Shown piece by piece: positions 1-12,248 of a DNA stretch of 43,076 nt; the first letter of the stretch is position 1, and each line of letters starts with the position of its first letter. Under the pieces are notes generated by a model, which saw only the letters and a program-made list of their open reading frames with translations, searched no databases and was not told where the DNA came from. Source of the DNA: Paracoccaceae bacterium (lineage in GTDB: Bacteria > Pseudomonadota > Alphaproteobacteria > Rhodobacterales > Rhodobacteraceae); contig JAGRDY010000030.1 in the NCBI GenBank assembly GCA_020446815.1, forward strand, positions 1 through 43,076. The letters are read 5' to 3'. The translations under genes were made by a program, and so were the position numbers.

Positions 1-404
1 ATCAGCCGGTCCTGCGCCTTGGCCATCCGGGGCCGCACGCGCCTGATGAAGGTCTTGCCCGCATCGGTGATCTTCACGATCTTCGCGCGCCGGTCGAATT
101 CCGAGGGCATCCGCGTCACCAGCCCGCGCCGTTCCAGCCGCCGGATCACATCGGCGCCGCTGGTGCGGTCGATTCCCACCGAAGTCGACAGCGTCAGCTG
201 GTCCATCTCTTCCCCGCCCTGCAGGACCGACAGGATCGCCGACTGCACCGGGGTGATATCCTCACCGCCGCATTCCTCGGCGAACAGACCGACATGGATC
301 TGGTGCAGGCGGCGGATCAGGTAGCCGGGCCGGGTCCAAAGCTCTTCATAGGTCCGGCTTTTGACTTTTCCCGGCCGCGCCGTCTTTTTCGGTGTGTTTT
401 CCAT
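1..404 (-). CDS. MarR-family transcriptional regulator (3' end beyond window)
   Basis: The reading frame runs off the window edge after about 134 codons and begins at an ATG preceded by GAGCAGGGAC. The product has a basic N-terminus, then a winged-helix core: a helix with RPGYLIRRLHQIH, a recognition-helix region with TSGADVIRRLERRGLV, and the wing sequence RMPSEFDRRAKIVKITDAG. The DRR motif in the wing is typical of MarR proteins. It is transcribed divergently from the molybdenum hydroxylase operon. Because one near-palindrome recurs at three promoters of this island, this protein is the natural candidate for the regulator that binds it; that link is inference. MarR proteins usually repress and are released by a small aromatic or heterocyclic ligand. 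The C-terminal dimerisation helices are not in the window. Confidence 0.85.
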   Translation of the reverse strand, partial: MENTPKKTARPGKVKSRTYEELWTRPGYLIRRLHQIHVGLFAEECGGEDITPVQSAILSVLQGGEEMDQLTLSTSVGIDRTSGADVIRRLERRGLVTRMPSEFDRRAKIVKITDAGKTFIRRVRPRMAKAQDRL

Positions 405-517
405 GTCCCTGCTCACAGCTATGTTGCAGACTAGAGATGCGGGCGGCGGCGCCAGAAGGTGCGACCTGCGCTTATTGCCCAGTTTGGCCTTTCCAGACAA
501 GTCCGGGCATGAGCTTG

Positions 518-549
518 TTGCATCGTAAAAATTATGCAGTATGCTTCCT
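518..549 (+). promoter_or_regulatory. Promoter with embedded operator, hydroxylase operon
   Basis: A -35 candidate TTGCAT (518-523) is separated by 16 bp from a -10 candidate TATGCT (540-545). The -10 lies inside TGCAGTATGCTTCCT (535-549), which matches the operator found at the two other promoters of this island at 12 of 15 positions. It lies about 90 bp upstream of the hydroxylase start. This is the most degenerate of the three copies, so repression here may be weaker or depend on another contact. Confidence 0.5.
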
Positions 550-636
550 TTATGATCCAATCGTCATGGGTCCGGCAACCCCCTTGCCCGTCGCTGGACA
601 AGGGATCGCCCGGTCCGGGGCTGGAGGGAACAGGTC

Positions 637-2982
637 TTGACCACCGGAATTGGCGCACGCATCGAACGCAAGGAAGACCGGCGGCTGCTGACCGGGCAGG
701 CGAAGTTCGTCGGCGACATCAAGCTGCCGCGACAGTGGGAAGCCGCTTTTGTCCGCAGCCCCGTGGCGCATGGCCGTATCCGCGCCATCCGCAAGCCCGA
801 GGGGATGGCGGATCGGGTTTTCACCGCCGCGGACCTCTCCGACATCCACCCGATCCGCGCCGAATCCTCGCTGCCGACCTATAACGCCTCGGACCAGTAT
901 CCGCTGGCGAAGGACAAGGTCCGCTTCGTCGGCGAATGCGTGGCGCTCTGCATCGCCCCCACCCGCGCCGAGGCCGAGGATCTGGCCGAACAGGTGGAGA
1001 TCGAGATCGACCCCCTGCCCCCCGTGATCGACGCGCTGAAGGCGCGCGAAGCGGATGCGCCTTTGTTGCATGAAGAATGGGGCAACAACCTTTTCCTGAC
1101 CACCTTCTTCGACGGCGATATCGAGACGCTGCGCAAGACAGCGCCGGTCGTGGTCGAGCGGGAATATTCGACCGCGCGCCAGTGCATGAACCCGATGGAG
1201 GGCAAGGGAACGCTTGCCCATTGGGATGAAAAGGCGGGCCAGCTTGTCGTCTATACCTCCACCCAGGTGCCGCATCTGATCCGCACCGGGATTTCGGAAT
1301 GCCTTGGCCTCGATCAGGGGCAGGTGCGCGTCATCGCGCCCGATGTCGGCGGCGGTTTTGGCTATAAATGCGTGCTTCAGCCTGAAGAGTTGTCCGTCTC
1401 ATGGGTCGCGCGCAAGACCGGCCGCCCGATCCGCTGGACCGAGGATCGGCGCGAACACCTCGTCGCTGGCGCGAATACCCGCCAGCATCACTACAAGCTG
1501 ACCGCCTTCGCCGATGAACGCGGGCGGCTTCTGGGGCTGGATGCCGAGATCACCGTCGATGTCGGCGCCTATTCCGTCTGGCCCTTCACCGCCTGTCTTG
1601 AGGCGGCGCAGGCGGGTGGCAACCTGCCCGGGCCCTACGACTTCGGCACCTATCGCTGCCACACCTTTTCGGTCGCGACCAACAAGCCCGCCTTCACCCC
1701 CTATCGCGGCGTCGCCCGCCCCGGTGTGTGCTTCGCGATGGAACTGACCATCGACGCCATCGCCCGCGCCGTGGGGCGGGAACCGTCGGAGGTGCGCAAG
1801 GAAAACCTCGTCCCCGCGGGGAAGATGCCCTTCACCAACGTGACCAAGAAATTCTATGACAGCGGCGACTATCCCGAAAGCGTCGCACAGGTGGAACGCC
1901 ATATCGGGCTTGCCGGTTTCCGTGCGCGCCAGCAAAAGGCGCGGGCCGAGGGCCGCTTCCTCGGCATCGGGTTTTCGACCTTCACCGAACAATCGGCGCA
2001 TGGCACAAAGGTCTTCGCCGCCTGGGGCCTGCCTCTGGTGCCGGGATACGAACAGGCGATGGTGAAGATCACGCCCTCGGGCTCGGTCGAGGTGCGCTCG
2101 GGCAACCACAGTTTCGGCCAGGGGCTGGAAACGACGCTTGCCCAGGTGGCGAGCGAATGGCTGACCGTCGATACAAGCCGGATCAACGTCACGATGGGCG
2201 ACACGGGCGTGACGCCCTATTCGACCGGCGCCTATGCCTCGCGCGGGATGGTGATGGCGGGCGGGGCGGTGTCGAAGGCGGCAGAGGTTCTTGCCGGGCG
2301 CGTGAAGACCCATGCCGCACATCTCTTGCAGTGCACGCCCGACGACATTCGCCTGGCCGACGGCAAGGCCTGGTTCGGCAATGCGCATGTCGGGTTCGAG
2401 GACATCGCGCGCGCCTGGTATCTGCGCCCCGACCAGCTTCCCGACGATGTGGAGACAGCGGGGCTTGAGGTGACCGAAGGCTACAAACCCGCGATCGACA
2501 CCGGTGTTTTCACCTATGCCACCCACGGCGCCATTGTCGAGGTTGATCCCGATACCGGCATGGTTTCCATAGAGGATTATTATATCTTCGAGGATTGCGG
2601 GCGCCGGGTGAACCCCATGATCCTTGAAGGGCAGGCTTTTGGCGGCGCGACACAGGGCATCGGCACCGCGCTCTTCGAAGAGGTGCTTTACGACGCCAAC
2701 GGCCAGCCGCTGACCTCGACCCTTGCCGATTATGTCCTGCCCGGCCCGGCAGAGCTTCCGCATTTCCGCCTTGGCCATGCCGAAACCCTGTCGCCCTATA
2801 CCCGGCACGGAATCAAGGGTGTGGGCGAAGGCGCGGCAATTGCACCCGGCGGGGCCATCGTCAATGCGATCAACGATGCGCTCACGCCTTTCGGAATAGA
2901 AATCAATGCCATCCCGGCGACCCCCGAAAAGGTACTGGGCGCGATCCTTCGGGCCGGCACCCTGCGGGAGGCCAGCGGATGA
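637..2982 (+). CDS. Molybdopterin-binding subunit of a CO-dehydrogenase/xanthine-dehydrogenase family hydroxylase
   Basis: This 781-residue protein is the large catalytic subunit of a three-part molybdenum hydroxylase, which binds the Mo-cytosine-dinucleotide cofactor and hydroxylates its substrate with water-derived oxygen. The TTG start is supported by GGAGG nine bases upstream. The Q-loop region reads GGGFGYK, the active-site loop is PYRGVARP (residues 355-362), and the catalytic Glu is E731 in GVGEGA. True form I CO dehydrogenases have AYxCSFR in the active-site loop; this protein does not, so carbon monoxide is unlikely to be the substrate. Length and domain order are normal for the family. 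Its stop overlaps the start of the FAD subunit by four bases. Membership of the family is certain; the substrate is unknown, and an aromatic N-heterocycle or aldehyde is plausible. Confidence 0.92.
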   Translation: MTTGIGARIERKEDRRLLTGQAKFVGDIKLPRQWEAAFVRSPVAHGRIRAIRKPEGMADRVFTAADLSDIHPIRAESSLPTYNASDQYPLAKDKVRFVGECVALCIAPTRAEAEDLAEQVEIEIDPLPPVIDALKAREADAPLLHEEWGNNLFLTTFFDGDIETLRKTAPVVVEREYSTARQCMNPMEGKGTLAHWDEKAGQLVVYTSTQVPHLIRTGISECLGLDQGQVRVIAPDVGGGFGYKCVLQPEELSVSWVARKTGRPIRWTEDRREHLVAGANTRQHHYKLTAFADERGRLLGLDAEITVDVGAYSVWPFTACLEAAQAGGNLPGPYDFGTYRCHTFSVATNKPAFTPYRGVARPGVCFAMELTIDAIARAVGREPSEVRKENLVPAGKMPFTNVTKKFYDSGDYPESVAQVERHIGLAGFRARQQKARAEGRFLGIGFSTFTEQSAHGTKVFAAWGLPLVPGYEQAMVKITPSGSVEVRSGNHSFGQGLETTLAQVASEWLTVDTSRINVTMGDTGVTPYSTGAYASRGMVMAGGAVSKAAEVLAGRVKTHAAHLLQCTPDDIRLADGKAWFGNAHVGFEDIARAWYLRPDQLPDDVETAGLEVTEGYKPAIDTGVFTYATHGAIVEVDPDTGMVSIEDYYIFEDCGRRVNPMILEGQAFGGATQGIGTALFEEVLYDANGQPLTSTLADYVLPGPAELPHFRLGHAETLSPYTRHGIKGVGEGAAIAPGGAIVNAINDALTPFGIEINAIPATPEKVLGAILRAGTLREASG

Positions 2983-3812
2983 AACCGTCGCCCTTCGAGA
3001 TTTCCTGCCCCGGCTCGCTCGATGCGGCGCACAAGGCGCTGCACGAAAACCCCCGGGGAACCAGAATCATCAGCGGCGGGCAGTCTTTGGGGCCAATGCT
3101 GAACCTGCGCCTTGCCCGGCCGTCGCGGCTTGTGGATGTTACCGGCTTGTCGGGCCTCGCCGAGATCCGCCAGACCGACAGCCATGTGGAGATTGGCGCG
3201 GCAGTCACCCACGCCAGGATCGAGGATGGCGAGGTGCCGGACCCCATTCCCGGCATGTTGCGCCATGTCGCCGCCGGCATCGCCTATCGGGCGGTGCGCA
3301 ACCGCGGCACGATCGGCGGCAGCCTCTGCCATGCCGATCCCGCCGCCGACTGGGTGACGGCCATGACCGCGCTGGGGGCCACTTTGCTGGTCCGCGACGG
3401 TTCGGGCGGCGCGCGAGAAATTCCGATGTCCGGCTTCATGCTCGGTGCCTATCGGACGTCGATGGCAGAGGATGAGATCCTGACCACGGTGCGCGTCCCG
3501 CGCCATTCTGACCGGGCGCGCTGGGGCTATTACAAGATCTGCCGCAAGGTGGGGGAGTTCGCGGACGCGATAGCGGGTTTTGTCGCCGACCCCGAAAGCC
3601 GCGTCTGCCGCGTGGTTTTCGGATCGACCGGCGGCGCGCCTTTGGTCAGCACAGAGCTTGCCCAGCAGATCGCGACAACGGGGGCCGTCCCGCCGCTTGA
3701 CACCGTCAAAACCGTCCTGCGCGACAGCGGACTGACCCTGTCGGACGTGAAGATCCACCAACTCGCCATCGCCCATTCCCGCGCCGTGACAGAGGCCCTT
3801 TCCGATGCCTGA
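2979..3812 (+). CDS. FAD-binding medium subunit of the molybdenum hydroxylase (CoxM type)
   Basis: The 277-residue product has the two FAD-pyrophosphate motifs of the family: GGQSLGPMLNLRLARP (from residue 33) and TIGGSLCHADPA (111-122). The C-terminal CO-dehydrogenase-type flavoprotein domain follows (about 180-275). Its role is to take electrons from the iron-sulfur subunit and pass them to the final acceptor. It overlaps the large subunit by ATGA and the next gene by eight bases, so the three genes are probably translationally coupled and made in fixed ratio. Loop segments vary too much to predict the electron acceptor; the island's own ferredoxin is one option. Confidence 0.92.
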   Translation: MKPSPFEISCPGSLDAAHKALHENPRGTRIISGGQSLGPMLNLRLARPSRLVDVTGLSGLAEIRQTDSHVEIGAAVTHARIEDGEVPDPIPGMLRHVAAGIAYRAVRNRGTIGGSLCHADPAADWVTAMTALGATLLVRDGSGGAREIPMSGFMLGAYRTSMAEDEILTTVRVPRHSDRARWGYYKICRKVGEFADAIAGFVADPESRVCRVVFGSTGGAPLVSTELAQQIATTGAVPPLDTVKTVLRDSGLTLSDVKIHQLAIAHSRAVTEALSDA

Positions 3813-4929
3813 GACCCTGACCCTGACCGTCAATGGCGAGAATTGCACCGTCACCGTCCCGCCGCGCACCCAACTGGCCGAGGTATTGCGCGATCATCTC
3901 GACCTGACGGGCACGCATCTTGCCTGCGAACAGGGTGTCTGCGGTGCCTGCACCGTGATGATGAACGGCAGGCCAGTGCGCTCCTGTATCACCTATGCCC
4001 ATGCCTGTGACGGCGCGGTGATCGAGACGATCGAGGGGCATCGCGGCGACGCGGTCATGGACCAGTTGCGCGATGCCTTCTCGCGCCACCATGCGCTGCA
4101 ATGCGGCTTCTGCACGCCGGGGATGCTGGCGACCGCGCGCGACATCGTTTCGCGCTTCGATACCGCCGATGAAGCCACGATCCGGCTTGAGCTGAGCGGC
4201 AATCTCTGCCGCTGCACCGGCTATGTCGGGATCGTCGGCGCGATTTCCGAGGTCATCACGGCGAAGGGTTCCACCGGCAAGCACTCCGCGCCCCCTTCCC
4301 CTGCGCGCCCCGCAAAGCCGTTCACGCCGTTCGAGCCGGTCGAGGCGGCGCAGACACCCATCCCGACCGCACCGAAAGGCTCCGTTTCGGCGGAGGGCGG
4401 CTGGACCGTGGTCAAGCGCAGCTTTGCGCTGAACCACGCACCGGATGCCGTCTGGCAGCTTTTCCGAGACCCGGCCCGCGTGGCCCCCTGCATCCCCGGC
4501 GCGACGGTGGAGAGCCTTGATGCCGAAAGCTTCACCGGCGCGGTGGAAATCCGCTTTGGCCCGATCCGGGCGCGCTTTGGCGGGCGCGGCAGCTATGAAA
4601 ATGACGATGCTGCCCGCGCGGGGACGATCCGGGGCGAGGGCGACGACAAGCTTGGCAAGTCGAAGGTCCGGGGGGCGCTGCGCTATGCCATCGCGAAAGG
4701 CGCGACGCCCCAGGTGAGCCGCGCCGAGGTGGAGTTGCGGTTCGAGATCGACGGCATGCTGGCGCAATTCAACCGGCCGGAACTTGTCACCGGATTCGTC
4801 GATTACATCCTGGTGCAGTTTGCCGCCAATTGCGATGCCGTCCTGTCGGGCGGCGAGGCCGGCCCAGTGAAACGGCTGAGCGTCTTCGCGATGCTCTGGG
4901 CTGTCCTGAAGGCGCGGTTTTCGCGTTAG
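3805..4929 (+). CDS. Iron-sulfur subunit (CoxS type) fused to a CoxG-like SRPBCC domain
   Basis: Residues 1-155 are a complete two-cluster [2Fe-2S] subunit. The plant-type cluster is at C41, C46, C49 and C61, and the second at C100, C103, C135 and C137 (CRCTGY). A proline- and alanine-rich linker follows (about 155-198). Residues 199-374 resemble CoxG, an SRPBCC-fold protein that in Oligotropha is linked to membrane anchoring of CO dehydrogenase. The C-terminus (about 350-374) is hydrophobic and basic, which fits membrane contact. The reading frame is continuous and codon use is even, so the fusion is real and not a sequencing join. It would tether the enzyme through its electron-transfer subunit; that is inference. 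Its stop lies 15 bases from the convergent reductase gene. Confidence 0.88.
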   Translation: MPETLTLTVNGENCTVTVPPRTQLAEVLRDHLDLTGTHLACEQGVCGACTVMMNGRPVRSCITYAHACDGAVIETIEGHRGDAVMDQLRDAFSRHHALQCGFCTPGMLATARDIVSRFDTADEATIRLELSGNLCRCTGYVGIVGAISEVITAKGSTGKHSAPPSPARPAKPFTPFEPVEAAQTPIPTAPKGSVSAEGGWTVVKRSFALNHAPDAVWQLFRDPARVAPCIPGATVESLDAESFTGAVEIRFGPIRARFGGRGSYENDDAARAGTIRGEGDDKLGKSKVRGALRYAIAKGATPQVSRAEVELRFEIDGMLAQFNRPELVTGFVDYILVQFAANCDAVLSGGEAGPVKRLSVFAMLWAVLKARFSR

Positions 4930-4944
4930 GCGGCGCTTGCCGGA

Positions 4945-5769
4945 TCAATCGACGAAAGCGCGTTCGACGACATATTGGCCGGGCTTGCTGTTGGCCCCTT
5001 CGGTAAAGCCGCGCGCCTCGAGAATGCGCTTCATGTCGAGGTTCAGCGCCATCGAGCCACAGATCATCACCCGGTCATGCGCCGGGTCAAGCGGCGGCAC
5101 GCCGAGGTCGGCAAAAAGCTTTCCGCTTTCAATCAGGTCGGTGATACGGCCCATCCTTTCGGAGGTTTCGCGCGTCGTGGTGGCGTAGCGGCGGAACTTG
5201 ACGGCGGCTTCCTCGCCCACCAGCGGGTCTTCGGCCAGCCGCCGTTCCAGATCGTCGCCATAGCCCAGCTCGCTTTTCAGGCGGCAGGTCTGGGTCAGGA
5301 TGACGCTGTCGAATTTCTCGTAGGTTTCCGGCTCGCGCATCAGGCTGGCGAAAGGCGCAACCCCGGTGCCGGTGGAAATCATCCAGAGCCGCTTGCCCGG
5401 CAAGAGCGCGTCGATGACAAGGGTTCCGGTCGGCTTGGTCTTGACGATCACCTGATCGCCCACCTCGATCTTTTGCAGGCGCGAGGTCAGCGGCCCGTCG
5501 GGCACCTTGATCGAATAGAATTCCAGCTCTTCGTCCCAGAAGGGCGAGGCGATGGAATAGGCGCGCAGGATCGGTTTGCCGTTTTCTCCCGGCAGGCCGA
5601 TCATCACGAATTCGCCCGACCGGAACCGGAAGCTGGCCGGTCTTGTGACGCGGAAGGAAAACAGGCGATCATCCCAGTGCCGGACATTCAGCACGGTCTG
5701 GGCATCGGGCATGGGCTTGGTGATGGGCTTGGTTTCGGGCGCGGCGGCCGGCGTTTGGGCGACGTTCAT
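4945..5769 (-). CDS. fpr: Ferredoxin--NADP(+) reductase
   Basis: The 274-residue flavoprotein exchanges electrons between ferredoxin or flavodoxin and NADP(H). The FAD-binding RAYS motif is at residues 69-72, the NADP pyrophosphate motif STGTGVAP at 132-139, and the C-terminus PGQYVVERAFVD is characteristic of Rhodobacter-type bacterial FPRs. The first 20 or so residues (Ala/Pro/Lys rich) extend beyond the usual N-terminus. It lies downstream of the ferredoxin gene with 42 bases between them, so both probably share the operator-controlled promoter. This suggests a dedicated electron-transfer pair for the island; whether it is the housekeeping FPR of the cell cannot be told from the window. 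Confidence 0.92.
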   Translation of the reverse strand: MNVAQTPAAAPETKPITKPMPDAQTVLNVRHWDDRLFSFRVTRPASFRFRSGEFVMIGLPGENGKPILRAYSIASPFWDEELEFYSIKVPDGPLTSRLQKIEVGDQVIVKTKPTGTLVIDALLPGKRLWMISTGTGVAPFASLMREPETYEKFDSVILTQTCRLKSELGYGDDLERRLAEDPLVGEEAAVKFRRYATTTRETSERMGRITDLIESGKLFADLGVPPLDPAHDRVMICGSMALNLDMKRILEARGFTEGANSKPGQYVVERAFVD

Positions 5770-5811
5770 GAGTTTCTCCGGTTCGGCAGGGGTTTCGCGC
5801 TGCGCGGGCGC

Positions 5812-6336
5812 TCAGGGGTTCACGCGCAGCCCGTCCACCTCGAAGCCCTCGGGCTCTTCGGTGTCGATCGGGTCCAGTATGACGATCCTGGCGTCGTCCT
5901 CGGGTTTCGGGAAAGCGACGGCCGCGCCGTCAACTTCGTAATGTTCGGCATCCGCGTCGCTTGGCATGTCACCCGCCTCATAGATCGGTTTTTGCGCCTG
6001 AGGCTCGGGTGGCGCGTCTCCGGTGATGAGCAGCCCCGCCTTGTCGGGCCTGCCGTTCCAGTTCGCGGCATCGGGCGGAACGATTCCGATTTCGGTGATG
6101 TTTGGCCAGATTCCAGCGTATTTCGCATTGATGGCAAGCCATTCGCCCAGCCCCGTCTCCGTATCGGCGCGGATCGCGTCGGCCGGGCATTCCGGTTCGC
6201 AGACACCGCAATCGATGCATTCCTCGGGATGGATGACCAGAAAGTTCTCGCCCTCATAGAAACAATCCACTGGGCAGACCGTGACGCAGTCCTGGAACTT
6301 GCAGTTGATGCAGTTTTCCGTGACGACATAGGTCAT
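5812..6336 (-). CDS. Seven-iron ferredoxin (FdxA type) with long acidic C-terminal extension
   Basis: The first 55 residues match the FdxA/Azotobacter FdI pattern. C9, C17 and C50 are expected to hold a [3Fe-4S] cluster, and C21, C40, C43 and C46 a [4Fe-4S] cluster; free cysteines C12 and C25 are also kept. Typical FdxA proteins are about 105-112 residues long. This one has 174, with some 65 extra residues rich in Asp, Glu and Pro after the PPDAANWNG segment. The extension has no cysteine or recognisable domain and could be a docking tail. SD sequence AGAGGTG precedes the ATG. The gene is first in a two-gene operon with fpr. Confidence 0.9.
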
Positions 6337-6354
6337 GATTCACCTCTCATTTTT

Positions 6355-6387
6355 AGGAAGTATACTCCTTAAAATCAGAGAAGGCAA
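6355..6387 (-). promoter_or_regulatory. Ferredoxin operon promoter with embedded operator
   Basis: Read on the minus strand, -35 TTGCCT (6382-6387) and -10 TATACT (6359-6364) are separated by exactly 17 bp, close to the sigma70 consensus. The -10 sits in AGGAGTATACTTCCT (6355-6369), a near-palindrome centred on GTATAC and repeated at the preA-like promoter with one change. A protein bound here would block RNA polymerase directly. The -35 begins only three bases after the stop codon of the upstream DUF2848 gene. Confidence 0.7.
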
Positions 6388-6390
6388 ACC

Positions 6391-7089
6391 CTAACCGAGA
6401 ATCGGCACCGGAACCACGTCATAGGCGTGGGAAATCCGGCGGTTCAGCACCGGATCGACAAGTTCGAGCGCGAAGCGCGGGCTGAACCTGACCCCGCCGA
6501 TGGCGCCGCAGGTGCCGCCGAACATCAGGGTGCGTTCGGCCAGTTCACCGCCATCCGCCTTCAGGTGGGCAAGCAGTTCCGCAGGCGAAAGAAGCCCCGC
6601 GACGCCGCCATCCTGATAGACGACCTCGCCGCCCGCCTCGCGGATGGTGGCGCGGATCAGAATCCGGTCCCAATGCCCTTCGACCTCATCCAGCGGCCAG
6701 AATTCGGTCGCGACGGGCTTGTCGCAAAGCTGCTTGGCCACCGTGATTCCCATATGCTCCACCACCCGGTCGGTATGGTCCGATCCCGCGCCGACCCAGA
6801 TCCGGCCCTTGTGGTTCAGAAGGACATATTCGACTTCGCCGCTCGACCCGTCGCCGATCACCTCGATCGCGTCGGCCACCGAAAGGCGCGACACGCCAAC
6901 CCGGTAGAAAAGCGGGGTTTTCGCGGGCGGCTTCACCCAGATCTTCGCCAGTTCGTCGATATGATGCTGAAGCGCCGCCTTGTCGCGGCCGGTCCAGCCG
7001 CCGACAATGACCTTTTCGATGACGACCCTCTCGCGCTCCTGACCGGCGCGCGTGGTGAAGGTGGCGTCAAATTCGACCCTGGCTGACAT
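6391..7089 (-). CDS. DUF2848 family protein
   Basis: The 232-residue protein is recognised as DUF2848 from its overall sequence, including GWTGRDKAALQHHIDELAK near the start, VEYVLLNHKGRIWVGAGSDHTDR in the middle and MFGGTCGAIGGVRFSPRFAL near the end. The family has no firmly assigned activity that I know of. The conserved HTDR, the SDH and the Gly-rich GTCGAIGG segments resemble the architecture of fumarylacetoacetate-hydrolase-like enzymes, but that is only a suggestion. It lies 15 bases after the amidase stop, the last gene of the preA-like operon, which points to a hydrolytic or isomerising step in the same pathway. No signal peptide, so it is cytoplasmic. Confidence 0.75.
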   Translation of the reverse strand: MSARVEFDATFTTRAGQERERVVIEKVIVGGWTGRDKAALQHHIDELAKIWVKPPAKTPLFYRVGVSRLSVADAIEVIGDGSSGEVEYVLLNHKGRIWVGAGSDHTDRVVEHMGITVAKQLCDKPVATEFWPLDEVEGHWDRILIRATIREAGGEVVYQDGGVAGLLSPAELLAHLKADGGELAERTLMFGGTCGAIGGVRFSPRFALELVDPVLNRRISHAYDVVPVPILG

Positions 7090-7104
7090 GATGTGCCCTT
7101 TCGG

Positions 7105-8451
7105 TTAACGGCCCCGGATGGTGCCTTCCAATCCCCGCGCGATCGACAAAAGCCTGCGGTCCCCACCGGTGCGCCCCATCAGCATCGCGCCCACCGGCAG
7201 CGTCCCTACCCCGTGGCAGGGGATGGAGATCGCGGGCAGGTCAAGGAAATTTCCGACGGCGGTGTTGCGCAGGCAAAGAAGGTTCGTCGCGGCCGACTTC
7301 GCGGGACAGGCAAGGCTTTCGAGTGTCGGCGCGACGATCTGCACGGTGGGCAGGATCAACGCGTCGAAGGCATCGGTTCTGCGCGCCACCAGCGCGCGCA
7401 TCTTCGCGCGGGCCTCGATCGTGCGGATATAGTCTTCGGCCGTTTGCGACTGACCGGCGCTGAACCGTTCCCTGACCCAGGGGTCATAGAATTCCGGTCG
7501 CGTCTCAAGAAACGGCTTGTGCCAGGCATAGGCCTCGGCCCCGACAAGGCCGCCCTTGCCGTTGATCTTCGGAAGCTCGGCCAGTTCCTCGATGGTCAGC
7601 GGCATCAGGCGGACCCCCCGGCTCGACAGACGGGTCAGCATCTTTTCATAGGCCGCGCCAACCGCCTCATCCAGATGCTCGGTCACATAGCCCTCAAGCA
7701 CCGCCAGACGCAGGCCGCCTTCGGGAAACGAATCCACATCCTCCCCGACCCCACCCGACAGGACGGAATCAAGCACCGCGCAATCGGAGACGGAATTCGC
7801 GAATGGGCCGATACAGTCGAGCGATTTCGACAGCGGCACGGTGCCGTCCCTGGGCACCCGCGCCGATGTCGGCTTGAACCCCACGACACCGCAAAAAGCC
7901 GCCGGGATGCGGCAGGATCCGCCGGTGTCCGTTCCGATCGCGGCAGGCACCATCCCTTCGGCCACCGCAACGGCCGCGCCGGAGGAAGAGCCGCCGGGGA
8001 TGCGATGCGCCGCCTTGTCATGCGGGTTGCGGGGGGTGCCGAAATGGGCGTTGATGCCAAGCCCGGAATAGGCGAATTCGGTCATGTTGTTCTTGCCGAC
8101 GATGACGAACCCGGCGGTGCGCAGGCGCTGCACGATGGTCGCGTCGGCCGTGGCGGGCGGCTGATCGTCCAGCACCCGCGACCCGGCCGTCGTCACCTCC
8201 CCCCTGACGTCGAACAGATCCTTGATCGCCAGCGGCACCCCTGCAAACGGCGGCAGCGCGATGCCGCTCGCACGAGCCGCGTCGGTCCATTCGGCCTGCG
8301 CCCGCGCGGCCTCGGGATAGCTGCGCAGAAACACCACATCGCCCTGCCCGGCCGGGTCGGAAATGCGCGAAAGCGCCTCCTGCACCAGATCGGCGCTTTT
8401 CAGGCTGCCTCTGGTCAGCTTGCGCGAAAGGTCGGTCAGGTTCTGGATCAT
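7105..8451 (-). CDS. Amidase-signature family hydrolase
   Basis: The 448-residue product has the Ser-cisSer-Lys triad of the amidase signature family: K77 in GVPLAIKDLFDV, cis-Ser S156 in PGGSSSG, and nucleophile S179 in GTDTGGSCRIPA. These enzymes hydrolyse amides, carbamates or ureido compounds in the cytoplasm. I chose the ATG at 8451, preceded by GGGA; a TTG five codons upstream is an alternative with no ribosome site. Relatives include AtzF/allophanate hydrolase, ureidomalonase-like enzymes and GatA. The absence of gatB and gatC and the catabolic neighbours argue against a glutamyl-tRNA amidotransferase. The operon context suggests ring-derived amide or ureide hydrolysis. Confidence 0.88.
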   Translation of the reverse strand: MIQNLTDLSRKLTRGSLKSADLVQEALSRISDPAGQGDVVFLRSYPEAARAQAEWTDAARASGIALPPFAGVPLAIKDLFDVRGEVTTAGSRVLDDQPPATADATIVQRLRTAGFVIVGKNNMTEFAYSGLGINAHFGTPRNPHDKAAHRIPGGSSSGAAVAVAEGMVPAAIGTDTGGSCRIPAAFCGVVGFKPTSARVPRDGTVPLSKSLDCIGPFANSVSDCAVLDSVLSGGVGEDVDSFPEGGLRLAVLEGYVTEHLDEAVGAAYEKMLTRLSSRGVRLMPLTIEELAELPKINGKGGLVGAEAYAWHKPFLETRPEFYDPWVRERFSAGQSQTAEDYIRTIEARAKMRALVARRTDAFDALILPTVQIVAPTLESLACPAKSAATNLLCLRNTAVGNFLDLPAISIPCHGVGTLPVGAMLMGRTGGDRRLLSIARGLEGTIRGR

Positions 8452-8510
8452 GTCGGGGTCCCGCAAAGACAGACCGCCCCAAAAGCGGGGCGGTCAGGAA
8501 AGGCCTGGGT

Positions 8511-8888
8511 TTACTGCGGGTCGTAGTAGTGCTGTTCCAGAAGCAGGCAGCCTTCCTCGGTGCGGAAGGGCCCATGCGCGACATGCGGCGGCCGGACGCA
8601 GTAGGTGAACGGGCCGAACCGCTCGCCGCCCTCGGGGCCTTCGTTGCCGACCCACATGTCGCCTTTGATCACGAAGACCTCTTCCCAGTAGTCATGCTCG
8701 AAGGGGACGGTGGTGTAGGTGCCCGGCTCGAATTTCAAAAGCCGGGTCCAGCCGCCCTTGCGGTTTTTCATGTCGAGATGGCCGGACAGGACTTTCTGCT
8801 TGATCCCTGACGGGTAGCCCTTGGGCGTTTCCCAGCCGCTGTCCATGTCAAGCTGGTAGAATTCGCGGTGTTCCTTGTTGACGGCCAT
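8511..8888 (-). CDS. Small cupin-domain protein
   Basis: The 125-residue protein is a single cupin barrel. The first cupin motif reads PFEHDYWEEVFVIKGDMWVG, and the second contains RPPHVAHGPF, so the His/Glu/His metal ligands are present. It starts at an ATG with AGGAGA seven bases upstream. It is 10 bases downstream of the preA-like gene and 59 bases upstream of the amidase. Single-domain cupins of this type include ring-cleaving dioxygenases, isomerases, and non-catalytic binding proteins. In this setting an isomerase, a hydrolase or an oxygenase acting on a heterocycle intermediate are all possible; I cannot choose among them. Confidence 0.82.
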   Translation of the reverse strand: MAVNKEHREFYQLDMDSGWETPKGYPSGIKQKVLSGHLDMKNRKGGWTRLLKFEPGTYTTVPFEHDYWEEVFVIKGDMWVGNEGPEGGERFGPFTYCVRPPHVAHGPFRTEEGCLLLEQHYYDPQ

Positions 8889-8898
8889 GATCGTCTCC

Positions 8899-10239
8899 TT
8901 ACTCGGCAGGTTCCTTGTTGAACTTGGGGCTGTCGGCGCGGATGGTGTCCATGTTGTTGCGCCGGGTCTTGAACTTGTCCTTCTCGTAGACATCCGCCGG
9001 GATGTTGAAGAAACCGGCGTCGAGCTGGGCAGGCGAGGTTTCCTTCATCTCGATCGAATCGAACGGGCAGGCATCCATGCAAAGCTCGCAGCCGATGCAA
9101 TTGTCGGTATGCACCTCGACCGTGCCGTCCGGTGTCTGCGAAAGCGCCTCGTAAAAGCAGACCTGGATGCAGATGTTGCAGGTCGGGTTCTTGCAGGTGT
9201 CGTCGTTGATGACGGCGTGGATGCGGTTTTTCGAAAACTGTTCCGAATAGTCCTTCACCGACCGCTTCGAGGCAAGCCCGATCATCTCGTCGACGCTGGC
9301 ATAGCCCTTTTCGTCCATGAAGCTTTCGACGCCCTCGATGATCTTCGGCAGCCACTTGATGCCCTTGACCATCAGGATCGAGCCGACCTGGACGATGGTC
9401 GATCCGGCCATGATGAATTCGATCACGTCGCGGTGGTCGAAGATCCCGTTCGAGCCCGAGATCGGCATCCCGAGTTCCTCGTGGATGCGGTGCACCCAGC
9501 GCAGCGACAGCGGCTTGACCCAGGTGCCGCCGATACCGGCGGGGCCGCCGATGCGCGGCTGGCCGGTGTCAATGTCGACGACAAAGCCGGTATGGCGGTT
9601 GATCGCGGTGACACCCGCCGCGCCTGCCTCGCGCACCGCCTTGGCGATGGCCAACGGCTTGGACTGATCCGGCGTCAGCTTGACGACGACCGGAATATCC
9701 ACCGACTCGCAGACCTGGCGCGTGACCTCATGGGCCACTTCCGGCTCCTGCCCGATCATCGAGCCTCCATGCACGCCCGGCATCATCGCCGGATGCGGGC
9801 AGCCGAAATTCAGCTCCACCATCGGCAGGCCGCAATCCTCGATGGTGCGGCAGATATCCTTCCAGCCGTTGATGTCCTTGGCGCCCGCGCTGCCGATCAG
9901 ATGCGCGCCGCGCTCCGCCGCGTATTTCTGGGTTTCCTTCAGGTCGGGAATCCAGTCCTTGTAATAGGTGCTGGAATAGCCCGACCGGCTGTAGAAAACG
10001 AAATCACGCGCCGCCTTGCCGCGGATGATGTCGCCTTTCGAATTCATGACACAGTATTTCGAGTTCTGCGTCAGGCGCGCCATGTCATCGATATCGGTCA
10101 GCGTCTTGATGATCGCGCCGGATGCGCCCCCATCGAAGCACTGGCGCATGAGATCGGGGCTGTTGGTGGTTTCCAGAGAAGCGATGATCACGGGGTTTTT
10201 GAACTTCACTCCACAGAAGTCCACGCTCATGTCGGCCAT
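8899..10239 (-). CDS. PreA-like flavin and iron-sulfur reductase (dihydropyrimidine dehydrogenase family)
   Basis: Residues 1 to about 330 form a dihydroorotate-dehydrogenase-like FMN barrel containing ELNFGCPHP, KLTPDQSKP and AINRHTGFV. The C-terminal domain has two [4Fe-4S] sites: C349, C354, C357, C361 and C381, C384, C387, C391. About 54 residues follow the last cluster. The ATG has GGGAGG ten bases upstream. In the known NAD-dependent dihydropyrimidine dehydrogenase, PreA works with the NADH-accepting subunit PreT. No preT-like gene is present here. The nearby ferredoxin and ferredoxin reductase under the same operator may supply electrons instead; this is inference. The pyrimidine-binding loop differs from classic PreA (GVHGGSMIGQ where E. 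coli has AMGSDVGQ), so the substrate need not be uracil or thymine. Confidence 0.85.
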   Translation of the reverse strand: MADMSVDFCGVKFKNPVIIASLETTNSPDLMRQCFDGGASGAIIKTLTDIDDMARLTQNSKYCVMNSKGDIIRGKAARDFVFYSRSGYSSTYYKDWIPDLKETQKYAAERGAHLIGSAGAKDINGWKDICRTIEDCGLPMVELNFGCPHPAMMPGVHGGSMIGQEPEVAHEVTRQVCESVDIPVVVKLTPDQSKPLAIAKAVREAGAAGVTAINRHTGFVVDIDTGQPRIGGPAGIGGTWVKPLSLRWVHRIHEELGMPISGSNGIFDHRDVIEFIMAGSTIVQVGSILMVKGIKWLPKIIEGVESFMDEKGYASVDEMIGLASKRSVKDYSEQFSKNRIHAVINDDTCKNPTCNICIQVCFYEALSQTPDGTVEVHTDNCIGCELCMDACPFDSIEMKETSPAQLDAGFFNIPADVYEKDKFKTRRNNMDTIRADSPKFNKEPAE

Positions 10240-10291
10240 CTCGATCCTCCCGCACGATGTCAGGTTCCGGTTGTTCGCCATCCGGAATATT

Positions 10292-10323
10292 AGGTAGTAT
10301 ACTCCTTTTTTATTTCGCGGCAA
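10292..10323 (-). promoter_or_regulatory. Promoter with embedded operator, preA-like operon
   Basis: Read on the minus strand, -35 TTGCCG (10318-10323) is 16 bp from -10 TATACT (10296-10301). The -10 is within AGGAGTATACTACCT (10292-10306), identical to the ferredoxin-operon copy at 14 of 15 positions. It lies about 55 bp upstream of the preA-like start. The AT-rich spacer (AAATAAAAAA) stands out from the GC-rich surroundings. Confidence 0.7.
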
Positions 10324-10620
10324 GGTCTTTGATCCGCCCGGCTGGCCGCGCGTTTGATGATTGCTGTGCGTGTCCTGACCCGCCTTTCGGGTGCCCCTGC
10401 GCTTGCCGCTCAGGCGCCGACAGGTTTCGCCATTCTTGAAAACATATCCCGGCAGCGCCGGACCAGGCGGTCCGGGCTTGTGCGCGCAAAGGCGAAACGG
10501 GGTTTCAAGGTCAGGGCGCGGGGCGGTGCTCGCCGGTTCGGCGCTTGCCCTGGGCAAGGCGGGTCCGGTCCCTCGCCGGGGCCTTCCCGGTGCGACCGGC
10601 GATGAACGCCTGCCGCTGGG
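10324..10620. other. Intergenic stretch without recognisable gene
   Basis: This GC-rich spacer lies between the catabolic island promoter and the 3' end of radC. Open frames here are short, lack ribosome sites and show no family resemblance. I see no RNA gene or convincing terminator; it may be a boundary between the accessory island and the housekeeping region. Confidence 0.5.
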
Positions 10621-11382
10621 TCACAGATAGCCCGAGGAGCGAAAGCTGACCTCGCGCGATCCGCCGATGATCAGGTGATCGTGAAGCGTGATTCCCAGGG
10701 TATGGGCGGCATCCGATATCTGGCCGGTGACGATGATATCCTGCTCGGACGGCGTCGGATCGCCCGAAGGATGGTTATGCACCAGGATCAGGGCGCTGGC
10801 GTTGAGTTCGAGCGCCCGCTTGACCACCTCGCGCGGGTAGACGGGCACATGATCGACAGTGCCCCGCGCCTGTTCCTCATCGGCGATCAGCATGTTTTTC
10901 CGATCCAGGAACAGGATACGGAACTGTTCGGTTTCACGATTTGCCATCGTGGTGCGGCAGTAATCGACCAGCGCCGCCCAGGATGTCAGGGCGTGCCGCC
11001 CGAGAACCCGCGACTGCGCCAGCCGATGCGCCGAAGCCTCGACGATCTTCAGTTCCTGCACGACGGCATCGCCTACCCCGGCAACCTTGCTCAACCGCGA
11101 CACGGGCGCCGACAGGACATGGTTGAAATCGCCAAAGCAATCCAGAAGCCGCCGTGCCAGAGGTTTCACATCCTGACGCGGAATCGCCCTGAACAGGAGC
11201 AGCTCCAGCAGTTCATAGTCGGGCATGGCCGCCGCGCCGCCAGCCATGAAACGCGCACGCAGGCGTTTGCGATGTTCCTTGATGTAGGATGGCAGCCGCC
11301 CGACCGGCAGTGCCGATTCCGGCGCCTCATCGCCCGCGAAAAGCGACAACGGGGCTTCGTGGAAGGCGTGACTCGGGCTCAT
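10621..11382 (-). CDS. radC: RadC-family JAB-domain protein (UPF0758)
   Basis: The 253-residue product begins with a helix-hairpin-helix region (about 40-110, including VSRLSKVAGVGDAVVQELK) and ends with a JAB/MPN metalloprotease-like domain. The metal-binding motif HNHPSGDPTPSEQD starts at residue 202, giving H202, H204 and D215. The C-terminus HDHLIIGGSREVSFRSSGYL is family-typical. Despite the historical name, a role in DNA repair is not established for RadC, so function is best stated as unknown with a likely hydrolase or scaffold fold. It stands alone on its strand. Confidence 0.93.
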   Translation of the reverse strand: MSPSHAFHEAPLSLFAGDEAPESALPVGRLPSYIKEHRKRLRARFMAGGAAAMPDYELLELLLFRAIPRQDVKPLARRLLDCFGDFNHVLSAPVSRLSKVAGVGDAVVQELKIVEASAHRLAQSRVLGRHALTSWAALVDYCRTTMANRETEQFRILFLDRKNMLIADEEQARGTVDHVPVYPREVVKRALELNASALILVHNHPSGDPTPSEQDIIVTGQISDAAHTLGITLHDHLIIGGSREVSFRSSGYL

Positions 11383-11588
11383 CCGCCGATGATTTGCGCA
11401 ACAGGGTGAAGGAAGTGTTAAGGCGGTCCGGCAAACACCTGATCCTTCACATTTCCCCCTCAGCCCGAATCCCCCTCAGCCCGAAAACGCCGAAGGCGTG
11501 GCAGAGTTCGGGCGATTCAATTTTTTTGCCGAAACGCCATCATTCCGGCCCCGGCACGGGCAAGCGGCGCAACCCCTGGCAGGCGGTT
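11383..11588. repeat. Spacer with two-copy 16-bp repeat and a stem-loop
   Basis: Two adjacent near-identical 16-mers CCCCCTCAGCCCGAAW occupy 11455-11470 and 11471-11486. The second copy supplies the 5' arm of a compound hairpin: CCCGAA pairs with TTCGGG around an inner ACGCC-gaa-GGCGT stem. On the plus strand a run of seven T follows at about 11520-11527, which would suit a terminator, but no plus-strand gene precedes it. Confidence 0.45.
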
Positions 11589-12248
11589 TTACCAGCCCGG
11601 CGGCGGCGATCCAAGCTCGCCCGCCAGGTCTGCCAGATAACGGCGCATGGCGGCGGCGCGACCTTCGGCAAGGCGCTTTCCGGTGGCGGTCAGGAAGGTT
11701 TCCGGCAGCCGCAGCAGCTTGACGGCGAAATGATCCAGCGCGAAACGGCTGTCGTCCGCCGCCCGGCCGTGGGCAAAGGGGTCGTTCTGATCGAAAAGCG
11801 ACCGCCCCAGCGCGCCCGATACGGCAAAGCAGCGGGCGATGCCGATCGCCCCCAGCGCCTCCAGCCGGTCGGCGTCATGCAGCACCATCGCCTCTGGCGT
11901 TTGCGGCACCGTTTCGCCGGAAAAGCTGTGCGCCTCGATGGCATGGCGGGCCGCGGCGATCTCTGCCCGGCTCAGCCCGAGCGCCTCCAGCACCGGCCCC
12001 GCCGCGGTGGCCGACAGGGTCGCCGCCTGGGCGCGCTTGGGGTGATCCTTGGGCAAGGTGACAAGATCATGCAGATAGACCGCCGCGACAAGCACCCGCG
12101 ACGCCTCCATCCCCTCGCCATGGGCGATCGTCTCGGCATGGCGCCAGACCCGGTCGGCATGGGCAAGGTCATGGGCCGGATCACCCCCCTGGCCGGTTGC
12201 CTGCACCAGCGCGTCACGCAACGCCCCGCGCAGCGCGTCCAGCGTCAT
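11589..12248 (-). CDS. HD-domain phosphohydrolase, YedJ-like
   Basis: The 219-residue cytoplasmic protein has the HD metal-binding pattern: H in [13 protein letters not shown] near residue 28, the HD pair in [17 protein letters not shown] near residue 59, and the distal Asp in [18 protein letters not shown]. The whole layout, including [19 protein letters not shown], resembles E. coli YedJ and related predicted phosphohydrolases whose substrate is not known to me. Its start overlaps the aroC stop by four bases (ATGA), so it is translated with chorismate synthase. That linkage looks positional; nothing suggests a role in aromatic synthesis. Confidence 0.85.

Follow-up and report, generated by a model that had tools for sequence, protein, structure and literature searches.

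We describe here a gene cluster at the start of a 43,076-nucleotide stretch of DNA from a Paracoccaceae bacterium (the window; G000:C15:1-43076), which starts where contig C15 of the host genome G000 starts, and consider the degradative pathway that this cluster may encode. Profile scans of the window proteins revealed two convergent gene runs in positions 1-10323. The plus-strand run consists of three molybdenum (Mo) hydroxylase genes, encoding the large subunit (637..2982), the flavin adenine dinucleotide (FAD) subunit (2979..3812; PF00941) and a [2Fe-2S] subunit with a fused CoxG domain (3805..4929; Fer2, Fer2_2 and COXG). A MarR-family regulator gene (3..560, minus strand; PF01047, HTH_27), truncated by the contig start, is divergent from these, and MarR neighbours were also present in related loci. 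The minus-strand run comprises, in order, genes for a PreA-like reductase with a flavin mononucleotide (FMN) and two [4Fe-4S] clusters (8899..10239), a small ChrR-type cupin (8511..8888; PF12973), an amidase-signature hydrolase (7105..8466; PF01425), a DUF2848 protein (6391..7089; PF11010, 241 bits), the ferredoxin FdxA with a C-terminal extension (5812..6336; NF045490, 154.2 bits for a cut-off of 135) and FPR, an enzyme of the ferredoxin-NADP reductase type (4945..5769; NF008178, 135.1 bits, under its cut-off of 390). All of the genes named in a preliminary description of this sequence (Mo hydroxylase, PreA-like reductase, ferredoxin/FPR, amidase, cupin, DUF2848 and MarR) were found within these positions, which we refer to below as the island.

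In a PDB search, the best solved match of the hydroxylase large subunit was quinoline 2-oxidoreductase (1t3q, 484.7 bits), compared with 413.9 and 376.6 bits for the CO dehydrogenases 8uem and 1ffu. Its segment PYRGVAR aligned with AYRGVGF of quinoline 2-oxidoreductase, and the AYRC motif of CO dehydrogenase was absent from the subunit; AYRCSFR is the active-site loop of aerobic CO dehydrogenase. The preliminary description had placed the enzyme in the CO dehydrogenase family without the CO motif; the absence of the motif stands, but the closer relative is quinoline 2-oxidoreductase. With molybdenum cofactor (MoCo), FAD and [2Fe-2S] subunits, 1t3q as best match and a GVGEGA motif, the enzyme has the make-up of a three-subunit Mo hydroxylase of N-heterocycles, and it differs from its top solved relative in the fusion of its [2Fe-2S] subunit to CoxG. 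Quinoline 2-oxidoreductase hydroxylates the carbon adjacent to the ring nitrogen, and the island large subunit is likewise predicted to hydroxylate a ring carbon beside nitrogen. A second large-subunit gene and MarR gene open contig C2 of the host genome (G000:C2:1-2852 versus window 1-2849; 87.8% nucleotide identity over 2854 positions) and are followed by LivHMGFK; this may be a second copy that has diverged, or else an artefact of assembly.

The PreA-like protein contains a dihydroorotate dehydrogenase (DHODH)-type FMN domain and a C-terminal 2x[4Fe-4S] domain, and scored 242.8 bits with the curated NCBIfam PreA model NF006183, under its cut-off of 335. To compare its site, it was aligned to pig dihydropyrimidine dehydrogenase (DPD), to DHODH B and to its relatives (alignment A2, from which locus L026 was omitted, the range taken having run beyond its stop). 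The catalytic Cys (pig DPD C671) and N668 were kept in 30/30 rows, including 25/25 rows of the island clade. By contrast, DPD N609, E611 and T737, which we take to be the positions holding the uracil ring, were changed in every clade row: Ser, within the motif YSRSG, stands at the positions of both N609 and E611 (25/25), and the conserved Asn is followed by Arg (N736-T737 to N-R; 25/25). Four true bacterial PreA rows retain Asn and Glu at the first two positions; a phmmer alignment to DPD is shifted there by two residues relative to A2, with Asn and Glu not kept under either. The Arg after the conserved Asn, Arg216, is paired in A2 with a Ser of bacterial PreA across a 3-residue gap, and with Thr in the pairwise DPD and DHODH B alignments. 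We read this site as having lost its pyrimidine edge and gained a carboxylate site, with Arg86 and Arg216 as candidate ligands of the carboxylate, so that a substrate lacking an N3-H/C4=O edge but carrying a carboxylate would suit it; the protein is predicted to be a pyridone-carboxylate reductase. No PreT-type NAD(P)H subunit lies beside its gene, where FPR and FdxA are found instead, and FPR is the predicted electron donor to FdxA. Selenocysteine was considered for the Desulfocicer PreA (L026) and rejected, the in-frame stop being the end of the gene, and a search for plasmid-borne PreA gave no match at E 1e-60. The host has a second PreA-like protein, 51% identical (G000:C33:112019-113215; L063:8984-10291), encoded next to a LysR-like gene and an FPR gene (68%), and a similar PreA/FPR pair in genome G064 (L064) lies near a dimethyl sulfoxide (DMSO)-reductase-family Mo protein, a thiamine pyrophosphate (TPP) enzyme and a nitrilase-like gene.

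A search of genome contigs with PreA yielded 51 loci, 23 of them (L002-L024) at least 65% identical. With genomes from searches of an order, a phylum and a class added, 46 loci were tabulated and grouped by similarity, not by record label; L009 is labelled as a Blastopirellula metagenome-assembled genome (MAG), L016 as an uncultured bacterium and L021 as a Bordetella parapertussis MAG, L115 and L120 come from one genome (G1243), and L049 has the accession prefix of L027. Many betaproteobacterial and Desulfobacteria loci end at contig ends, where a missing gene does not amount to an absence. The lower gene set was kept in 12 of the 13 close relatives, the thirteenth (L013) being a 3.3 kb contig on which only PreA is found. 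Within this Rhodobacteraceae-like group (n = 14 with the window), the FAD subunit, FeS-CoxG, DUF2848, cupin, amidase, FPR and FdxA were present in all 13 loci other than L013, and the large subunit in 12 of these 13, the locus L010 being cut. Conservation of the genes together in other genomes, proposed at the outset as a check, was thereby borne out. The ten betaproteobacterial loci carried HyuA in nine (L018 has its N-terminus), HyuB in five and the hydroxylase in five, and none had DUF2848, cupin, amidase or CN hydrolase, HyuAB standing in their place. Of two further alphaproteobacterial loci, L024 has HyuAB and L015 the amidase, DUF2848 and cupin. Both Chloroflexota loci contain DUF2848, PreA, a nitrilase-type amidase (CN hydrolase), KorA and KorB, and one has a cupin. 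Among the 18 Desulfobacteria loci, two of which belong to one genome, CN hydrolase was found in 16, DUF2848 and cupin in 15 each, an MttB-family methyltransferase in 12, a BCCT betaine carrier in 10 and KorAB in one; L122 forms a compact run, FAD-FeS-MoL-cupin-DUF2848-CN hydrolase-PreA. The distribution is patchy: within the family, 4 of 295 genomes (host included) gave a PreA hit at 88% identity or above, and hits were obtained in 4 of 300 genomes of the order of G307, 2 of 350 of the phylum of G305 and 16 of 340 of the class of G306. The gene set is real and kept in relatives, but the word "island" of the preliminary description fits it loosely. In L021, L022 and L023, the region upstream of MarR-PreA contains genes that, judged by eye, resemble those of a periplasmic Mo hydroxylase and of proteins of Sox-type sulfur oxidation.

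The palindrome AGTATRCT was first spotted in a promoter scan and then counted. It occurs at three places of the window, namely between MarR and the hydroxylase (ATGCAGTATGCTTCCT, 534..549), upstream of FdxA-FPR (AAGGAGTATACTTCCT, 6355..6370, minus strand) and, on the minus strand, on the promoter-like PreA site TTGCCG-16-TATACT (AAGGAGTATACTACCT, 10292..10307, feature 10292..10323); an extended form, AAGGAGTATACTWCCT, is present at two. The operator sequence AAGGAGTATACTWCCTT is a candidate MarR target. The five strand matches at these three places compare with 0.23 expected, a figure that is not blind because the pattern was picked after being seen, and 10- or 12-base k-mers detected no shared operator in the window. 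In the 12 relatives, where some slices stop short of the places counted, the exact 8-mer was located upstream of PreA in 8/12, upstream of FdxA in 9/12, between the hydroxylase and MarR in 7/12 and upstream of LivH in 8/12 (L002-L005, L007, L008, L011 and L014); one match in L010 lies inside FdxA. Across the whole host genome, the extended operator without mismatch was confined to the three island places. When one mismatch was allowed, contig C2 added three places (between the hydroxylase and MarR, at LivH and just upstream of a TRAP-type gene) and C22 a single one; the controls gave 5 matches. The L009 operator immediately precedes the inferred start of a glutaryl-CoA dehydrogenase gene, within the divergent promoter that this gene shares with PreA. 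Since relatives keep the gene set and the operator core matches exceed expectation, the occurrence of these genes together is beyond chance. Because the operator recurs at these promoters in the window, the genome and the relatives, the hydroxylase, reductase, electron carriers, hydrolases and Liv-type uptake genes probably form one unit.

Genes of 2-oxoadipate or 2-oxoacid metabolism adjoin the cluster in some loci of three lineages. In L007, L009, L010 and L011, PreA is adjoined by genes for a glutaryl-CoA dehydrogenase, an E1-type 2-oxoacid dehydrogenase and C12, a 349-residue protein with no Pfam match (a regulator-like gene intervenes in L011), and L008 has a glutaryl-CoA dehydrogenase gene at its contig end. 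The L010 glutaryl-CoA dehydrogenase matched 3gnc (598 bits) and 1sir (541 bits), with 4w9u, named acyl-CoA dehydrogenase, as top hit (686.5 bits), and scored 230.9 bits with NF045552, under the cut-off of 470. The same set of glutaryl-CoA dehydrogenase, E1 and C12, with piperideine-6-carboxylate dehydrogenase after it, is found in G301, G302 and the host genome, whose piperideine-6-carboxylate dehydrogenase scored 813 bits with NF050084 (cut-off 730). Since E1 and C12 lie there between glutaryl-CoA dehydrogenase and piperideine-6-carboxylate dehydrogenase, their position suggests that they act on 2-oxoadipate. E1 was detected in 13 of the 14 distinct PreA-positive close-relative genomes, compared with 91 of 295 family genomes; a plain binomial, which ignores kinship, gives 2.3e-6 for this enrichment (6.9e-6 without the genome of L009), and 5.4e-4 to 1.6e-3 once the closest relatives of the window are collapsed. 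In the genome G1142, the genes that come after the cluster on its own strand encode KorAB (37 and 43% identical to the Chloroflexota pair), the glutaryl-CoA dehydrogenase Acd (NF045552, 754.5 bits, cut-off 470), the beta subunit of a sodium-pump decarboxylase and a carboxyltransferase with a weak match; piperideine-6-carboxylate dehydrogenase and a class-III aminotransferase lie at a greater distance. KorA and KorB adjoin PreA in Chloroflexota, L125 adding KorC and a UbiD-type decarboxylase, and L015 contains a TPP enzyme of the acetolactate-synthase kind. A 2-oxo acid that is converted to glutaryl-CoA is 2-oxoadipate, and this points to picolinate, the simple pyridine acid from which ring opening leads directly to 2-oxoadipate. 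Genes resembling, by eye, those of electron-transfer flavoproteins (ETF) follow FPR in L009 (14429-15929), L010 (15309-17909, including a 3-hydroxybutyryl-CoA dehydrogenase gene, 467.7 bits, cut-off 420) and L012 (10063-10770), an arrangement that fits a glutaryl-CoA route. In L125, PreA and KorC flank the UbiD-family gene (10447-11814; 359 bits for a cut-off of 245), whose product perhaps prepares a dicarboxylated ring.

Considering the conserved core, the swapping of parts, the hydroxylase kinship, the PreA site, the 2-oxoadipate-type neighbours and the MttB and BCCT genes, we infer, with about even confidence, that the island serves the reductive degradation of a pyridine-2-carboxylate, most likely picolinate, to 2-oxoadipate. 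The Mo hydroxylase would introduce a hydroxyl group from water at C6, yielding 6-hydroxypicolinate in its 2-pyridone form. Electrons from NADPH would then pass via FPR and FdxA to the PreA-like flavoprotein, which would convert the pyridone by reduction into the cyclic enamide 1,4,5,6-tetrahydro-6-oxopicolinate. DUF2848, aided by the cupin, would hydrate and open this ring to 2-oxoadipamate, from which the amidase would remove ammonia to give 2-oxoadipate, and lysine-route enzymes would convert the latter through glutaryl-CoA to crotonyl-CoA. The amidase is predicted to be an omega-amidase for 2-oxoadipamate, or else a lactamase. HyuAB would replace the ring-opening and amidase steps in betaproteobacteria, and the nitrilase-type amidase would replace the amidase step in Chloroflexota and Desulfobacteria. 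A pathway that hydroxylates and reduces the ring of an N-heterocycle and also hydrolyses an amide, as anticipated in the preliminary description, agrees with these findings and with the conservation of the genes together. If this scheme is correct, pyridine-2-carboxylates can be degraded without any step that requires O2, by a route usable by aerobes and anaerobes, and DUF2848 and a PreA subfamily acquire testable functions.

In many Desulfobacteria, the BCCT carrier would import homarine (N-methylpicolinate) and the MttB-type methyltransferase would demethylate it first. Together, these two genes point to homarine or trigonelline, both N-methyl pyridinium acids, as substrate. In L026, the single locus scanned, the MttB frame is continuous, so that this MttB is no pyrrolysine-type enzyme. 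A route for aerobic homarine breakdown by way of N-methylglutamate has reportedly been described; our literature search returned no report of one. According to the available text of a 2021 study (PMC8269262), homarine is abundant in marine particles, has no characterised degradation pathway and supports poorer growth of Ruegeria pomeroyi than trigonelline does; its homarine concentrations were later corrected downward (PMC10134881). The full proposal, that of an undescribed reductive picolinate/homarine pathway common to alphaproteobacteria and anaerobic sulfate reducers, with a PreA-type 6-hydroxypicolinate reductase and DUF2848/cupin/amidase leading to 2-oxoadipate, so that DUF2848 would gain its first function and homarine an anaerobic sink, is tentative, and we doubt it somewhat more than we trust it. 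If true, it would provide candidate genes for the fate of homarine.

Several observations weigh against the picolinate scheme. The two arginines and YSRSG are also present in the 51% identical host paralogue and in L064, where the conserved Asn is Ser, and L030 (29% identical) has the Arg and retains the Glu, so these residues appear to mark a family wider than the island clade; our confidence was lowered slightly because the paralogue has the same two Arg. Glutaryl-CoA genes stand at PreA in just 4-5 of the 14 close-relative loci, maybe through one event, and one of these loci, L009, with its Blastopirellula label, belongs to the group by similarity alone. No NCBIfam model matched E1 (E1_727) above its cut-off, and for C12 there was no match of any kind; searches for E1 gave no hit in G303, G304, G307 and G308 or in the Frigidibacter genome G1298, where the cluster is present, nor was glutaryl-CoA dehydrogenase found in G305 and G306 at E 1e-100. 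Of the 18 Desulfobacteria loci, only one has KorAB after the cluster. The operator search gave no match at the host's glutaryl-CoA dehydrogenase module. The 35 kb of G1142 that were read contain no MttB gene, so the substrate in common would be the acid after demethylation. Finally, the roles given to DUF2848, as a ring-opening hydratase or lactamase, and to the cupin, as a helper of ring opening, are guesses: similarity of DUF2848 to the fumarylacetoacetate hydrolase (FAH) fold was not significant (1nkq, E 0.58; hhalign probability 1.25 versus 1.36 for an unrelated control).

The main rival substrate is nicotinate (or trigonelline), degraded as in Eubacterium barkeri or Azorhizobium: PreA would reduce 6-hydroxynicotinate to 1,4,5,6-tetrahydro-6-oxonicotinate, which would pass via 2-formylglutarate to glutarate. 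The Azorhizobium nicotinate route also ends at glutaryl-CoA, MttB and BCCT would suit trigonelline, and the altered PreA site suits any pyridone carboxylate. Even so, and although the same chemistry is already described in the available text of PMC9304392, we regard this rival as unlikely. It needs an aldehyde oxidation, and one aldehyde dehydrogenase query (E 1e-8) matched in 0/46 loci, many of which are short, so that the gene could lie elsewhere; it leaves unexplained the 2-oxoacid enzymes (E1, KorAB(C) and the TPP enzyme) beside some clusters; and trigonelline is given as far rarer than homarine in marine samples (PMC8269262, subject to the correction of homarine values in PMC10134881). 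Somewhat less probable is full saturation of the ring to 6-oxopipecolate, which the amidase or HyuAB would open as a lactamase to 2-aminoadipate for a transaminase to convert to 2-oxoadipate. HyuAB relatives do include 5-oxoprolinase (the Pfam name is Hydantoinase B/oxoprolinase), and in three plasmids DUF2848 is accompanied by a putative hydro-lyase, a TRAP carrier and either hydantoinase B/oxoprolinase or an amidase, a set that looks like 5-oxoproline chemistry; yet one class-III aminotransferase query matched in only 1/46 loci (L020, 31.6% identity; other aminotransferase classes were not searched), and an aminotransferase gene lies about 20 kb beyond PreA in G1142.

A five-membered ring such as pyrrole-2-carboxylate, degraded to 2-oxoglutarate, would make the glutaryl-CoA genes needless, and a hydroxypyrrole need not be reduced; we consider such a substrate improbable, even though the KorA/KorB models matched also cover 2-oxoglutarate enzymes and plasmids of two Thioclava, Roseateles and Caballeronia combine amidase-cupin-DUF2848-Liv with a monooxygenase of the 4-hydroxyphenylacetate (4-HPA)-3-hydroxylase type and a flavin reductase, the enzyme group to which pyrrole-2-carboxylate monooxygenase is assigned in the available text of PMC6165268. 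Homology to PreA, HyuAB in relatives and the cooperation of a Mo enzyme with a PydA homologue in reductive urate breakdown (available text of PMC12507026) would be accommodated by a pyrimidine, purine or hydantoin pathway with PreA acting as a dihydropyrimidine dehydrogenase. This is a shade more improbable still, considering that the uracil-edge residues are changed in all 25 clade rows and that the PreA score is below the model cut-off. The absence of barbiturase, claimed in the preliminary description, is true of the ten island proteins, but for the host genome it cannot be read from the search, which was empty, as was that with its control query. That genes with separate roles are merely adjacent would agree with the different families of the parts and with the patchy distribution; it is the least credible of these alternatives, and close to negligible, because the partners recur in four groups of loci and share an operator sequence.

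A literature search that covered few subscription journals turned up no report of a pathway comprising these genes, in keeping with the preliminary description, and no papers naming DUF2848. The reductase of the E. barkeri nicotinate pathway is of another type than PreA. The nearest described chemistry is that of the reductive nicotinate and urate routes (available text of PMC9304392 and PMC12507026, respectively). In the nicotinate pathway of E. barkeri and A. caulinodans, as in the picolinate scheme, a hydroxylated ring is partly saturated to a cyclic enamide and opened hydrolytically with loss of ammonia; E. barkeri employs a bifunctional enamidase and produces 2-formylglutarate (PMC9304392), whereas the island has a PreA-type reductase and DUF2848/cupin/amidase, with 2-oxoacid genes beside some clusters. 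Reductive pyrimidine (PreA/PydA, DPD) and urate (XdhD with YgfK or UacX) breakdown share the reductive dearomatisation by a PydA/PreA-type flavoprotein, which in urate breakdown is paired with a Mo enzyme and for which ferredoxin is the suggested donor in clostridia (PMC12507026). By contrast, the island PreA has its uracil-edge residues replaced and two Arg gained, FPR and FdxA are adjacent to it, and the hydrolases are others. The aerobic pic cluster of Alcaligenes faecalis JQ135, which the title of a reference cited in PMC10142695 places under the control of a MarR protein, would share 6-hydroxypicolinate as first product, but it is oxidative and proceeds through a monooxygenase, a decarboxylase and a dioxygenase towards fumarate (available text of PMC10142695); profile scans identified no such pic-type genes among the ten island proteins. 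The lysine/2-aminoadipate route resembles the scheme in the glutaryl-CoA dehydrogenase that stands beside the PreA cluster in some loci only.

The SDHTDR motif of DUF2848 was invariant in the alignment, and DUF2848 was found in 55 plasmid records, of which ten regions were opened. It was accompanied there by an amidase, by a cupin or DUF4437, or by hydantoinase B/oxoprolinase. In four regions (two Thioclava, Roseateles and Caballeronia) it occurs with a flavin monooxygenase pair and a Liv carrier, in three with a putative hydro-lyase and a TRAP carrier, in two with an amidase and an MFS carrier, and in one with an FAD monooxygenase and a cupin; the swap between amidase and hydantoinase of the island types recurs among the three hydro-lyase/TRAP regions. 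In view of these recurring partners and this swap, DUF2848 looks like a general step in the opening of carboxylated lactams or enamides. In L081, L083, L084 and L132, a cupin-amidase-DUF2848-Liv module is joined to the 4-HPA-3-hydroxylase-type monooxygenase pair, and this gene set possibly encodes a pyrrole-2-carboxylate pathway.

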